This document shows positions 1 through 16,061 of a stretch of 21,319 nucleotides of DNA, piece after piece. Under the pieces are notes generated by a model. The model worked only from the letters and a program-made list of their open reading frames with translations. It did not search any database and was not told the origin of the DNA. Made by a program: the position numbers and the translations under genes. Position 1 is the stretch's first letter; each line of letters opens with the position of its first letter. This DNA comes from a virus: positions 1-21,319 of the IMG/VR virus record IMGVR_UViG_3300010885_006368. The stretch is one strand, 5' to 3'.

Positions 1-114
1 ATATTTTTGACTTATATCGCTTGCAACTTCCCATTGTTCGCCGCTAAAAGCAAAAAAAGCACCGTTGGCATCGAGTATCTTTGTTTGTTCTGCTTCATTA
101 TTAAAATGTTTCAT
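1..114 (-). CDS. Small phage protein, N-terminal 38 residues only (runs off the left edge)
   Basis: Read leftward from the ATG at 114-112, the frame stays open to the window edge (38 codons, beginning MKHFNNEAEQ). The ATG overlaps the stop of the RadC-like gene (TAATG) and has GGAGAG a few bases upstream, so it is the next, translationally coupled gene of the same leftward operon. The stretch ILDANGAFFAFSGEQW resembles the N-terminus of small mobile-element proteins of the DUF7659 type; that is recalled resemblance, not a search result. No function can be given. The C-terminus lies outside the window. Confidence 0.6.
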   Translation of the reverse strand, partial: MKHFNNEAEQTKILDANGAFFAFSGEQWEVASDISQKY

Positions 115-10928: not shown

Positions 10929-10964
10929 TTTTAGTAACAACCAACAATGTCGGGAGACATAATT

Positions 10965-12491
10965 ATGGCATCATCTATACCAATTTCTAAAGAAGTAACC
11001 GTAATACCTGGTGTTGTAGGTACAGGCGGTAATCCTTTAGCATTAAACACTGTTTTTTTAACTCAAAATACATTAGCACCAAATGAAGCTATATTAAGTT
11101 ATTCAAATGCAACTGATGTAGGAGCGTACTTTGGCACAACATCAGCGGAGTATTTGGCTGCTGTATGTTATTTTGCTGGATTTGATAATGCAAGTAAATT
11201 TCCAAGTACATTATTTATAGCGGGTTATGCAGCTACATCACAACCTGCGTGGTTGCGTGGTATTAACTTAGCTGGTCAACCATTAACGTATTTTACAGCA
11301 TTAAATGGTTCATTGAGTATTGTAATCAATGCTGTAACTTATAGTAATCCCTCTTTAAATTTAGCTTCTGGAACAAGCATTGGTGGCGCAGAATCGACAT
11401 CCATTATAAATCTTATTAAAACAGGATTAGGCTTTACCGGTGGATCAGCTCCAACAATTACTTGGGATTCAATTAGAAGCCAATTTGTTATCACATCGTA
11501 TGCAACTGGGGATGGCGTAACAATAGCTTATGCATCTGGCACATTATCGTCACCATTAGGTGTCGCTGCTGGTATATTAAGTCAAGGTGACAGTATTGAT
11601 ACACCCGCTGATGCAATGAATGATTTGCTTAATTTGTCAAATAATTGGGCTACTTTCATGACAATTTGGGAAACTGTCAACACTGATACAATTCTTTTTG
11701 CACAATGGACTCAAGCCCAAAATGATCGCTATGCCTATATAGTGTGGGATTCTGACATAGGAAACAAAACTGCAAATAACGCCACAACTATTGGTGCTAT
11801 TATCGCAGCGGATACATTTGATGGGACATTAGTTTGTTATGCGCCAACAGGAGGCGTGTATTTAGCAGCAGCCATAGCTGGTTATGCAGCGGCAGTTGAT
11901 TGGAGCGCACTCAATGGCAGGGCTACTCTTAAATTTAGACAGCAATCTGGTTTAGCTAGTTATGTGGGAGAAGTAACTAATATAGCTGATGCCAATGCTG
12001 TATTAAGTAATAATTCTACTTATTTTGGTAGCTATTCTGCTCCAGGTGTTGGCAATAATTACAACATCATTGCTGATGGAGCTATGGGCGGCAGTCGTTT
12101 CGCATGGTTTGATACTTATATTGGTCAGATTTTCCTTAATTCACAACTAGCTCTTTCAATATTTGAGGGTTTACTACAAGTGAATATGGCTCCATACAAT
12201 GACTTAGGCTACAACCTAATTAGAGCGTGGTGTGCTGATCCTATTGAACAGGCATTAAATTGTGGAATCATTAGAACTGGCGTGTCTTTAAGTAATAGCC
12301 AAAAAGCAGCGATTAGCTATAGCGTGGGCAAGGATATTTCTACCCAATTACAAACACAAGGCTATTATCTAAATATTGTTGATGCAACCGCTCAAGAGCG
12401 TGGCGCACGCGTTAGTCCACCAATGAAATTGTATTATATGGATGGCGGTGCGATTCAACAAGTTACCTTAAACTCTATCGTAGTATTATAA
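10965..12491 (+). CDS. Tail sheath protein (DUF3383 family)
   Basis: A 508-aa contractile tail sheath subunit. The frame is open from an ATG at 10947, but the ATG at 10965 gives the family-typical start MASSIPISKEVTVIPGVVGT and has GGGAG eight bases upstream, so 10965 is preferred. Other DUF3383 features are the LFIAGYAATSQPAWLRG region, an inserted beta domain (about 105-195), a conserved C-terminal part with FLNSQLALSIFEGLLQ, DLGYNLIRAWCADPIEQAL and a closing beta strand. Its presence establishes a contractile, myovirus-type tail. It is followed by the tube gene 10 bp later. Confidence 0.92.
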   Translation: MASSIPISKEVTVIPGVVGTGGNPLALNTVFLTQNTLAPNEAILSYSNATDVGAYFGTTSAEYLAAVCYFAGFDNASKFPSTLFIAGYAATSQPAWLRGINLAGQPLTYFTALNGSLSIVINAVTYSNPSLNLASGTSIGGAESTSIINLIKTGLGFTGGSAPTITWDSIRSQFVITSYATGDGVTIAYASGTLSSPLGVAAGILSQGDSIDTPADAMNDLLNLSNNWATFMTIWETVNTDTILFAQWTQAQNDRYAYIVWDSDIGNKTANNATTIGAIIAADTFDGTLVCYAPTGGVYLAAAIAGYAAAVDWSALNGRATLKFRQQSGLASYVGEVTNIADANAVLSNNSTYFGSYSAPGVGNNYNIIADGAMGGSRFAWFDTYIGQIFLNSQLALSIFEGLLQVNMAPYNDLGYNLIRAWCADPIEQALNCGIIRTGVSLSNSQKAAISYSVGKDISTQLQTQGYYLNIVDATAQERGARVSPPMKLYYMDGGAIQQVTLNSIVVL

Positions 12492-12501
12492 AGGATAAAT
12501 C

Positions 12502-12930
12502 ATGGCAACTATAACCTCAGCAGATGCAGTATTTATAATTACTGTGCCTGATATTGCAATTATTCACCAAGTACAAGGCTACGCAGCAGACGCAGCCTTT
12601 GATGTTGGTGAGCAAGACGTAGCACAAAACATTCTAGGTGTTGATGGTAAAAAGTCATCAGGTTGGATTCCACAAATGTACACACAAGCTGTACATTTAC
12701 AAGCAGATAGCCCTAGCGTTAGTGTGTTTGATGCAATTTATCAATTCCAAAATACTAACAAAACTGTCTATTCAATCACTGGAACTGTTACTTATAACGC
12801 AACAGGTAGATCGTATGCCTTACGTAATGGTACTTTAACTTCTTACAAACCCTTACCTGATGCTAAACAAGTATTGCAAGCGCAAGACTTCTCTATCGTT
12901 TGGGAAAAAGTACAACCAGCTTTAATTTAA
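12502..12930 (+). CDS. Tail tube protein (DUF3277 family)
   Basis: A 142-aa protein of the size and pattern of DUF3277 inner tail tube subunits: MATITSADAVFIITVPDI at the N-terminus, GYAADAAFDVGEQDVAQNIL, GVDGKKSSGWIPQMYTQAVHLQ and a C-terminal FSIVWEKVQPAL. The tube runs inside the sheath and conducts DNA. AAGGA lies upstream of the ATG. The gene follows the sheath gene directly and precedes the tail chaperone, which is the invariant order in this phage type. Confidence 0.88.
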   Translation: MATITSADAVFIITVPDIAIIHQVQGYAADAAFDVGEQDVAQNILGVDGKKSSGWIPQMYTQAVHLQADSPSVSVFDAIYQFQNTNKTVYSITGTVTYNATGRSYALRNGTLTSYKPLPDAKQVLQAQDFSIVWEKVQPALI

Positions 12931-12931
12931 T

Positions 12932-13330
12932 ATGAGAAAAACAGTCGATATATTAGGCGTAGGTCGTGACGAAAACAAGGTTTATAGAATAACCGAGTTT
13001 GGTGCTTTCAAAGCTGAAAGAATAGCTATGAGGGGGTTATGGGCTATTGCCGCATCAGGAGTGGAAATTCCTGAAGATATGTCGACTGCTCCACTGGCAA
13101 AGCTCGTTGAAATAGGTATTATGTCTTTGGCAAAAATACCTTTCAACGTAGCTGAGCCTTTATTAATAGAAATGTTAGAGGCTGTCACATTAGTAATGCC
13201 AGACTCTCAGATTAGGAAAATACTGCCTGATGACATTGAGGAATACCGTACTATTCTTAAATTGAGAAAGGAAATTATTTCTCTACATATTGATTTTTTT
13301 TTCGAAAACGAAGTCCAGATTACGGAATAG
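12932..13330 (+). CDS. Tail assembly chaperone, zero-frame product (gpG analogue)
   Basis: A 132-aa, mostly helical protein located between tube and tape measure, where myo- and siphophages encode tail assembly chaperones. It starts with a small beta part (KVYRITEFGAFKAERIAMRG), then helices rich in Leu/Ile/Met. Near its end lies a run of nine T (13294-13302) read as Asp-Phe-Phe-Phe, after which the zero frame stops within nine codons. The -1 frame continues for 76 codons up to and into the tape measure gene, so this is the short form of a G/GT-type pair. The start is 1 nt after the tube stop and has no strong Shine-Dalgarno. Confidence 0.8.
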   Translation: MRKTVDILGVGRDENKVYRITEFGAFKAERIAMRGLWAIAASGVEIPEDMSTAPLAKLVEIGIMSLAKIPFNVAEPLLIEMLEAVTLVMPDSQIRKILPDDIEEYRTILKLRKEIISLHIDFFFENEVQITE

Positions 13331-13533
13331 GTTTACCGGGTAAAACTGTTGAACCTCACAAGCTGGTGGCCTGTGTAAACATACCGGGCATCCATGCGAG
13401 TTTAATAACCAATAAGCTTGCAACATTACATGAATTACAAGAAGTATATAGCGCGGAAGATGCGTATGATATGCTTGAAATGCTTACAGTTAATTTTCAT
13501 AACGATAGGATAGTTCATGGCAACCGTACTTGA
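12932..13533 (+). CDS. Tail assembly chaperone, frameshifted long form (gpGT analogue)
   Basis: This is the fusion made if ribosomes slip -1 at the T tract (12932..13303 joined to 13303..13533). It would be about 200 aa: 124 zero-frame residues plus 76 from the -1 frame. The extension reads RKRSPDYGIGLPGKT, continues through ACVNIPGIHASLIT and ends with EVYSAEDAYDMLEMLTVNF then HNDRIVHGNRT. The AEDAYDMLE(M/I)L segment is typical of C-terminal T domains of tail chaperones. The extension has no start codon of its own before residue 57, is open throughout and ends 17 bp inside the tape measure gene. In lambda-type systems the long form bridges tail subunits and tape measure. Confidence 0.72.
13294..13303 (+). 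promoter_or_regulatory. Probable -1 ribosomal frameshift site (T9C slippery tract)
   Basis: In the zero frame the tract reads GAT TTT TTT TTC, giving the X XXY YYZ heptamers T TTT TTT (13294-13300) and T TTT TTC (13297-13303). Slippage by -1 at either gives the same fusion, ...DFFF-RKRSPDYG.... A run of nine T could also support transcriptional slippage. No strong pseudoknot was found; only a small hairpin (13332-13344) lies downstream. Confidence 0.75.
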
Positions 13534-14965
13534 TTCATTAAAAGTAATCTTAGGTTTAGATGCTACAGGCTTCCATGCTGAAATAAAGAAGATTAAGCAA
13601 GAACTGAAAGAAATAACTAAAGAACAAAAGATTGATGTTACAACTGTCAAAAAAGTCGAAGCTGAAAAAGACAAAATATTAGATAAGGCTGTTAAGAAAA
13701 GAAAGGTTGTTCGCAAAAAAGAAACTACCGAAGTAAAGAAAGAAAGAAAAGAAGAAGATGAACAAACAAAGGCTGCCGAAAAAACCCAAACAAACACATT
13801 AGTTGATGTCATATCAAAAAGATTTGCTGCTGTTGCCATAGCTAATAAAGTATGGAATATTGCAAAAGAGGGACTAATTGACGCTGCAACTTTTGAAAGA
13901 TTATCTTCTTCAATGCAAGACTCAGCTATTGATCTGAAGGCTTATTCACTTAGCATGGAAATGATTGGTGGAAGTGCGGAATCTGCAGTCAGAGGCATTC
14001 TTGATCTACAATCAAAATTAGATAGATTTCAATTATATGGCGAAGGCGCAGAAGATTTATCTAAATCAATAGGTATGATAGGGGCCGACCTTTTAAAGTC
14101 CACAGGCGAGGCTAAAACAGCCCTTGAGCTTATGGACGATGTTCAAAGCTATATTGACAGAAACCCACAACAATTAACTGGATCACAACTAAGAGAAGTT
14201 GTGACACCATTGCTTGGTGATGATGCTATTAATAAATTCTATGCAATGAGCCAACCCAAACCTAAAAGAACGTCTTTACAGGAGATAGCACAATCAAACG
14301 CAAAGGAAGCACAAAAAACAGGTAAAACTGCTCAGAATACAATAGAGACTGCCAGAGGAACTATACAAGACGTAAAAACTAGCATTGCAGGTGCAGTTGG
14401 TGATATTTTAAATCCAGACAATTATTTTCAAACGGAAAAAAATAAAGCAAAAGCCAAGTCATTAGGATCAATAGTAGAAAAATTAGAATCTAATCCAAAT
14501 GACCCTAATAAAGTAAGTCCCGCAGGTGCTATGGGGGCAAGGCAAATGTTACCCGCTACTTTTGATGCGGAAGCTAAGGAAATGGGGATTAAAAACCCTA
14601 ATATAAATGATCTTGATACAAATAGAAAGGTTAGTGACCATTATTTAGAAAAATTAGCTAAGAAGTTTGGGGGGCAAGGTCAAGCATTATTAGGCTATAA
14701 TCGTAAGGGTGAAAGTACTGAATTTAAAGATGGAAAATTTGTAGGTGGCAAGATACTAGGAGAATCACAAGATTATTTAGGTAACGCTCTAGCTATGAGA
14801 GCGCCTAACGAGTATAAATATGACAAAAACACAAATAAAGTTACAAATATTTTAAGTGGAATGGTTATTAATATTAATGGCGACCAAGATTCTACAAATA
14901 AAATTATAAACGAAATAAATCGTACATTTATTGATATGGGCAGCAATAATACGGGGATGCAATAA
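13517..14965 (+). CDS. Tape measure protein with lytic transglycosylase-like domain
   Basis: A 482-aa protein, the first after the tail chaperone. Residues 20-90 are a highly charged Lys/Glu coiled coil, followed by helices and an Ala/Gly-rich segment (about 260-300). Residues about 316-425 resemble a soluble lytic transglycosylase/lysozyme-like fold: LESNPND with candidate catalytic E324, then SPAGAMGARQMLPATF (334-349) and LLGYNRKGES (391-400). Such domains help the tail open peptidoglycan during DNA entry. The protein is short for a tape measure; at about 0.15 nm per residue it would specify a tail of roughly 70 nm. AGGA lies upstream of the ATG. The start overlaps the -1 frame chaperone extension. 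Confidence 0.82.
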   Translation: MATVLDSLKVILGLDATGFHAEIKKIKQELKEITKEQKIDVTTVKKVEAEKDKILDKAVKKRKVVRKKETTEVKKERKEEDEQTKAAEKTQTNTLVDVISKRFAAVAIANKVWNIAKEGLIDAATFERLSSSMQDSAIDLKAYSLSMEMIGGSAESAVRGILDLQSKLDRFQLYGEGAEDLSKSIGMIGADLLKSTGEAKTALELMDDVQSYIDRNPQQLTGSQLREVVTPLLGDDAINKFYAMSQPKPKRTSLQEIAQSNAKEAQKTGKTAQNTIETARGTIQDVKTSIAGAVGDILNPDNYFQTEKNKAKAKSLGSIVEKLESNPNDPNKVSPAGAMGARQMLPATFDAEAKEMGIKNPNINDLDTNRKVSDHYLEKLAKKFGGQGQALLGYNRKGESTEFKDGKFVGGKILGESQDYLGNALAMRAPNEYKYDKNTNKVTNILSGMVININGDQDSTNKIINEINRTFIDMGSNNTGMQ

Positions 14966-15768
14966 TGGGGATTGGAATACCACAATTACTTGTGCCATCT
15001 ATTGGTAGCATCGGTCGGGCTGCATTAACTTTAGCTCAAGGTGCTTTGTTTGATTTTTTAACTGTTGATACTAAGTGGGGCATTTATTATCAAGGAAGCA
15101 CTCAGGAGATTATATTAGGTAAAGTTAAGCCTAGTAGTATAAGCGGTATTGCTGGTCAAGCCACTTCATTGGCAGGTGTTAAATCCCTGTTAAGTGGTGA
15201 GTTATTAGCTAATAATGTGTTTATTGATAGCGTAGTATCCATTTCTCAGAAAAAAGGCTCTGAATTATCTAACTACCGATTAGAAACAGGAAGTTTTACA
15301 ACTTACAATAAAGTAGAAGCTCCTAGGCAAGTTAATATTCGCATTACTAAAGGTGGCACAGAAGAAGAACGAGGATTGCTTCTAGTATGGCTGGATATGG
15401 TTAGTAAAGGCTATACAAAAAAAAGAACAAAAATTAAAACTGGCGGTTCATTTCATAATAATTATTTTGATATTTATGTTCCAGAAGTTCATTATCCAAA
15501 TATGACGTTAGTTGATTATTCAATTACTAGAGACTCGTCATCTGGCGTTAGTTTATTAATTGCAGATTGTATTTTCCAAGAAATAATGCAAGTTTCAATG
15601 CAGTATTCTTCGTCAAAAACATCCAATTCAACACAAGCTCAAGATATAGGTGCAGAAGACAATTCAGTACAAGCTAATAAACCTTCACTATCAATATTAG
15701 ATAAAATAAAAGGCGTTGCCGATTCTTTTTCCAGTGTTGCTGATGGTTTAGGGGGAATAGGCTTATGA
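14965..15768 (+). CDS. Tail/baseplate protein downstream of the tape measure (Dit-like)
   Basis: A 267-aa protein. A short hydrophobic/Ala-rich N-terminus is followed by a beta-rich core, with the conserved-looking block APRQVNIRITKGG, LLLVWLDMVSKGYTKK and YPNMTLVDYSITRDSSSG (about 178-195), then a Ser/Thr/Gln-rich flexible tail and a last amphipathic helix. The Y(P)NM.L.DYS..R....G pattern and the position after the tape measure fit a baseplate or distal-tail (Dit-like) protein that connects tube end and baseplate hub. It is coupled to both neighbours (TAATG at its start, ATGA at its end). The family is only partly recognised. Confidence 0.6.
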   Translation: MGIGIPQLLVPSIGSIGRAALTLAQGALFDFLTVDTKWGIYYQGSTQEIILGKVKPSSISGIAGQATSLAGVKSLLSGELLANNVFIDSVVSISQKKGSELSNYRLETGSFTTYNKVEAPRQVNIRITKGGTEEERGLLLVWLDMVSKGYTKKRTKIKTGGSFHNNYFDIYVPEVHYPNMTLVDYSITRDSSSGVSLLIADCIFQEIMQVSMQYSSSKTSNSTQAQDIGAEDNSVQANKPSLSILDKIKGVADSFSSVADGLGGIGL

Positions 15769-16061
15769 ATTATCTACAAATACCTTTACAAGCTATACCT
15801 TCACAAACTGTTGGTGTGTCTTTAAATTCTCAGCAATGCTCTATTACATTAAGAGAGTTGAATGGAAGGCAATATTTAAGCCTTTCAATAAATGGAGCGC
15901 CTATATGTAATAACGTGTTATTACAAAGCAGCACATCAATTATAAAAGCAGCTTACACAGGTTTTGTGGGCGATTTAATTGTCATAGACTCTGTTGGTAG
16001 TGACGCGCCCATTTATACTGGGTGGGGTTCACGATGGAGTTTGATATATAACTATGCCTAG
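15765..16061 (+). CDS. Baseplate plug protein (DUF6983 family)
   Basis: A 98-aa, all-beta protein. It opens with LQIPLQAIPSQTVGVSLN, followed by SITLRELNGRQYLSLSINGAPI and GFVGDLIVIDSVGSD.PIYTGWGSRWSLIY, which is the pattern of DUF6983 / phage baseplate plug proteins. These small proteins sit in the baseplate hub of contractile tails. The ATG overlaps the preceding stop (ATGA), and the end overlaps the next gene by 8 bp. Its length is the usual one for the family. Confidence 0.75.
   Translation: MNYLQIPLQAIPSQTVGVSLNSQQCSITLRELNGRQYLSLSINGAPICNNVLLQSSTSIIKAAYTGFVGDLIVIDSVGSDAPIYTGWGSRWSLIYNYA

Follow-up and report, generated by a model that had tools for sequence, protein, structure and literature searches.

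The closest described counterparts of the locus analysed here are the G/GT pair of phage lambda, with the slip site G_GGA_AAG, and E/E+E′ of phage P2. In P2, E+E′ arises by a -1 frameshift on TTTTTTG, and no downstream structure was detected in P2 and its relatives (PMC3091744). The roles of the short and long chaperone forms of lambda have been reviewed (PMC5009743), and for the TAC-N and TAC-NC proteins of Pakpunavirus Adele and the Vandenendeviridae a -1 frameshift at a GTTTTT motif has been proposed bioinformatically (PMC12846349). Here we describe a locus in which a run of nine Ts (T9) lies where a chaperone gene meets an overlapping open frame. Judging from its sequence arrangement, its homologies and the conservation of its frame among relatives, this locus very probably uses -1 programmed ribosomal frameshifting to make two forms of a tail chaperone with a single start codon.

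Layout of the junction

The window, a virus record of 21,319 bases analysed over its whole length, contains exactly nine Ts close to the 3′-end of the 132-aa chaperone gene (Table 1), which confirms the T9 observation of the earlier note. The zero frame reads GAT TTT TTT TTC GAA at the tract and then reaches the stop codon TAG at 13328–13330. In the -1 frame no stop occurs between 13294 and a TGA at 13531–13533, 76 codons past the T9 run, and the end of this frame overlaps the tape-measure gene, which starts with the ATG at 13517, by 17 bp; both the open stretch and the overlap agree with what had been claimed. Two in-phase heptamers of the form X_XXY_YYZ stand at the frame junction, T_TTT_TTT at 13294–13300 and T_TTT_TTC at 13297–13303, and, as had also been claimed, a slip on either would give the same product, a predicted fusion of 124 zero-frame residues and 76 further residues (200 aa). 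T9 alone does not stand out in a window so rich in AT, where 1.0 such run is expected by chance on both strands; it is its position that matters. The -1 frame stays open in 14 of 5000 dinucleotide shuffles of 13303–13530.

Table 1. Features around the junction, with single-frame counterparts from two other phages (positions in the window unless a locus is named)
Feature	Position	Strand	Evidence
Tail sheath (DUF3383)	10947..12491	+	Pfam 3e-112, PHROG 205 tail sheath
Neighbouring tail gene, E217 gp32-like, probable tail tube	12502..12930	+	PF22764 1e-16, PHROG 1964
Tail assembly chaperone, short form (G-like / TAC-N), 132 aa	12932..13330	+	PHROG 1932, AlphaFold2 model, fold
T9 slippery tract, two overlapping heptamers	13294..13302	+	Sequence; aligned T_TTT core in 144/147 relatives
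Predicted -1 frame extension (T-like / TAC-C domain), 76 codons + TGA	13303..13533	+	PHROG, tblastn, AlphaFold2 model
Gene at tape-measure position, 482 aa, SLT transglycosylase domain	13517..14965	+	Pfam SLT 8.4e-8, PHROG 2013 lytic tail protein 3.9e-6
PB1 gp41 (Pseudomonas phage)	L015:17601-18134		
Wifcevirus gp044	L013:2171-2692		

The order sheath, tube, chaperone and tape measure is the classical one, with the chaperone between the probable tube gene and the tape-measure position. Elsewhere in the window, 7133–7684 matches the XM1 gp53 and E217/Pam3 cement families and 15765–16061 the Pam3 baseplate plug family; these matches place the phage near contractile phages of the E217/Pam3/XM1 type. 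Near its left end the window carries a RadC-like JAB domain gene (114–608; Pfam 1.2e-45) on the minus strand, opposite to the structural genes, then about 840 bases (609–1445) with a G8 run at 1308 and no ORF of at least 60 aa wholly inside, and then a 151-aa ORF at 1446, probably the terminase small subunit.

The two halves of the predicted chaperone

The upstream gene is supported as a tail chaperone by its profile match, with PHROG 1932 ('tail assembly chaperone') at E 1.6e-29, and its predicted model may share the fold of solved tail chaperones. Pfam Phage_TAC_15 fell below the cut-off for the window protein (E 0.086); among relatives it reached 3.4e-7 at best, and at E 0.1 it matched 26 of the 75 members. 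Sequence searches of the PDB with the short form or the extension gave nothing significant, and the NCBIfam search gave no match. The AlphaFold2 model of the short form (pLDDT 87.4) found as its best solved matches the PICI-like ORF19 (5ir0, Z 7.6), the HK97 tail assembly chaperone gp13 (2ob9, a middling Z of 5.6 over 82 residues, rmsd 3.3) and YqbN (3klu, Z 4.9), unrelated rows having Z below 3; at about 5–8% identity the likeness to HK97 gp13 and YqbN is one of predicted structure alone. AB1gp01 is among the predicted viral structures that match the short form, as are several entries that bear the name tail assembly chaperone.

The extension matches PHROG 3976 (2.9e-13), PHROG 4774 (5.1e-10) and PHROG 4625 (3.8e-8), so the profile search suggested earlier does find families for it, but all three are labelled 'unknown function'. 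By tblastn (E up to 0.1) it has matches in 365 phage records, and its AlphaFold2 model shows three helices with good confidence (pLDDT 87.0). The top matches of the extension among viral structures are short uncharacterised phage ORFs of 48–59 residues and a 172-residue protein of Serratia phage SMP, none below E 0.001, and no chain was listed in a fold search of the PDB. By sequence and model the extension is a genuine and conserved domain; its conservation, together with its frame among relatives (see below), supports the earlier likening to a chaperone T domain.

Frame and slip site among relatives

The stop-to-stop ORFs of all fetched loci were searched with a profile of each half. The extension lies in the -1 frame in 147 of the 147 distinct loci that carry both domains, which are not 147 independent events because the sequences are related; grouping at about 80% similarity gives 80 extension groups. 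Where the earlier note had allowed for relatives with an unrelated, separately started gene at this place, the opposite was found. Because the extension query began with FF, the loci fetched through it may be biased toward the slip site. A set of 80 loci chosen solely through the neighbouring tail gene nevertheless agrees: both halves are present in 77 of these (69 distinct), the extension being in the -1 frame in all 77, and the remaining three are short loci. An alignment of nine relatives was too diverse for degenerate scans, and closer subsets were used.

When the junctions are aligned, 144 of the 147 loci show a T_TTT core there and three lack it. Most core-bearing loci have T_TTT_TTN and/or G_GGT_TTT (the latter in 43/147), one has A_AAT_TTT, and 20 have T_TTT without a full heptamer, which counts against frameshifting. 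The T runs in the 144 loci are T4 in 5, T5 in 52, T6 in 59, T7 in 25, T8 in 2 and T9 in one, the window's own; the window's nearest relatives have T7. The same GAT TTT TTT TTC site with T9 was also seen near position 1988 of a distant relative (locus L196; 42% identity in the chaperone). Conservation of the T tract therefore holds for the core but not for the nine-T length, and the homopolymer slip site described earlier, though present with its heptamers, is not special among relatives that have T4 to T9 or G_GGT_TTT. The residue after the conserved F varies in the zero frame (F 56, S 45, L 25, others), whereas 126 of 131 have FF in the -1 frame; it is therefore the nucleotides that are kept, not the zero-frame protein.

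The length of the window's own tract suggests another route, in which RNA polymerase adds one U at T9 and the resulting U10 mRNA encodes the same 200-aa protein. Programmed transcriptional realignment has been ascribed to T runs longer than eight (PMC3711429), selection against such runs is seen at a length of nine in a substantial fraction of bacterial genomes (PMC1088944), and the distant relative with T9 shares the site. We nevertheless consider transcriptional slippage improbable, as nearly all relatives show the same -1 arrangement with T4–T8, below the usual threshold, the nearest of them with T7, and others carry G_GGT_TTT. The family also has no conserved tract of at least nine A or T, the hallmark taken from MxiE and Thermus dnaX, its lengths being 4–9 (plus the T9 of the distant relative). 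Ribosomal slippage is preferred because relatives whose tracts are too short for polymerase slippage keep the arrangement, and it is the likely mechanism for the family, T9 being one length in a T4–T9 series. It is possible that transcriptional slippage at T9 adds to ribosomal slippage, with the same protein as the result. Since T9 both holds two heptamers and has the length for polymerase slippage, this phage may even combine the two and raise its long-to-short ratio above that of its relatives, although we rate such a combination as rather unlikely.

Two further explanations would remove the frameshift altogether. The extension might be a separate small gene that starts at the GTG at 13366, codon 25 of its frame; the earlier statement that the first 56 codons lack a start codon is right for ATG, the first of which is at 13471, but not for GTG, and many phage records annotate a hypothetical gene of its own here. 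However, no good Shine-Dalgarno sequence was found upstream of this GTG, the conserved FF at the slip site precedes it and is part of the conserved stretch, no ATG lies between slip site and core in 114 of 182 loci, and PB1 and Wifcevirus carry the domain fused in frame. We therefore rejected a gene starting there as highly improbable. Homopolymers are also prone to assembly errors, and a true tract of T8 or T10 would make the frame relation an artefact. Against this, a second IMG/VR contig, possibly from the same reads, is identical over 8396 nt including T9, and the same frame relation recurs in every one of the relatives with other tract lengths, which makes an error of this kind barely credible.

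From the arrangement we infer the slippage itself, its efficiency and the binding roles of its products as follows. Most ribosomes would read 12932–13330 and release the 132-aa short form, while a minority, with tRNA-Phe decoding UUU in both the P site and the A site, would slip one base backward within U9, read on to 13530 and make the 200-aa long form. By analogy with lambda gpG and gpGT, many short copies would sit on the tape measure and a few long copies would use their three-helix domain at the C-terminus to recruit tail-tube subunits. In E. coli, which may not be the host, U_UUU_UUU is less shifty than A_AAA_AAG (work cited in PMC5009743), which counts against the proposed slippage. A downstream stimulatory RNA structure was rejected: folds of 50–100 nt in the window were not clearly better than shuffles (z 0.18, -1.43 and -1.02) and downstream folding across the family was weak (mean z -0.9), so the earlier impression of no obvious strong pseudoknot was right; this result, too, counts against frameshifting.

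Comparison with other phages

Two proteins of 173–177 aa, PB1 gp41 and gp044 of Wifcevirus WFH, carry the extension domain at their C-terminal end within one continuous reading frame (Table 1). The C domain of PB1 aligns with the extension by hhalign at 96%, E 3.5e-9, and in both proteins it directly follows NFGFL, which resembles the H-x-D/G-F junction of the window. The fused gene sits after a tape-measure-like gene and one more tail gene, and WFH gp044 matches PHROG 20369 ('tail assembly chaperone') weakly, at 2.2e-4. By profile, the N-terminal parts of these two proteins are at best weakly similar to the short form, and the link therefore rests on layout and the C domain. PB1 gp38 was rejected as a short-form homologue after no homology was found, and sequence searches of the PDB with PB1 gp38 and gp41 gave nothing significant. 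We take PB1 gp41 and Wifcevirus gp044 to be a natural fusion, which favours the frameshift reading of the window. Because the domain stands in a single-frame protein after a tape-measure-like gene, the chaperone of these phages may be made without any frameshift; how or whether a short form arises in PB1-type phages, with their related C domain in a single frame, becomes a question of its own. The PB1 record itself annotates another potential ribosome slippage site, at gp43 (L015:18898-18906), just before the baseplate wedge gene.

Direct homologues of both domains, in the same gene order and with the extension in the -1 frame, are found in Acinetobacter phages of the Obolenskvirus type (AB1, AP22), Aeromonas phages vB_AsaM-56, 2_D05 and 4_D05 and Pseudomonas Orisa phages. 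Their sites are T_TTT_TTN or G_GGT_TTT, with a T run shorter than that of the window, and their annotation shows a chaperone beside a separate hypothetical protein, or simply hypothetical proteins. In the public records examined, the protein is either split in two or its second half is left unannotated. These findings indicate that what many contractile-tail phages have annotated beside the chaperone as a 'hypothetical protein' (e.g. PHROG 3976) is the latter part of a chaperone made by frameshifting. The natural series of slip sites, from T4 to T9 and G_GGT_TTT, could be used to relate tract length to frameshift efficiency. The added value of this analysis is modest, and consists of this large comparative series and the split or missing annotation in public records.

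The chaperone-frameshift interpretation is thus supported, and the arrangement is an ordinary one among tailed phages. The Adele and Vandenendeviridae proteins are, like the window's, myovirus chaperones with a proposed -1 shift at a T run, and belong to another phage family likened by arrangement. The lambda G/GT arrangement proposed earlier is supported by the chaperone profile, the gene order and the invariant -1 extension: as in lambda, a two-form chaperone would lie between the tail tube and tape-measure genes with a -1 shift near the end of the upstream gene, although lambda is non-contractile and is likened by arrangement. P2 E/E+E′ shares more with the window, namely a contractile tail, a gene before the tape measure, a T-rich heptamer and the -1 direction, and in neither has a stimulatory structure been detected; the window differs in its nine-T run and its two overlapping heptamers, and the likeness to P2 is again one of arrangement. 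By this analogy the locus would belong with lambda G/GT and P2 E/E+E′ as an ordinary example of -1 programmed frameshifting, P2 being the closest.
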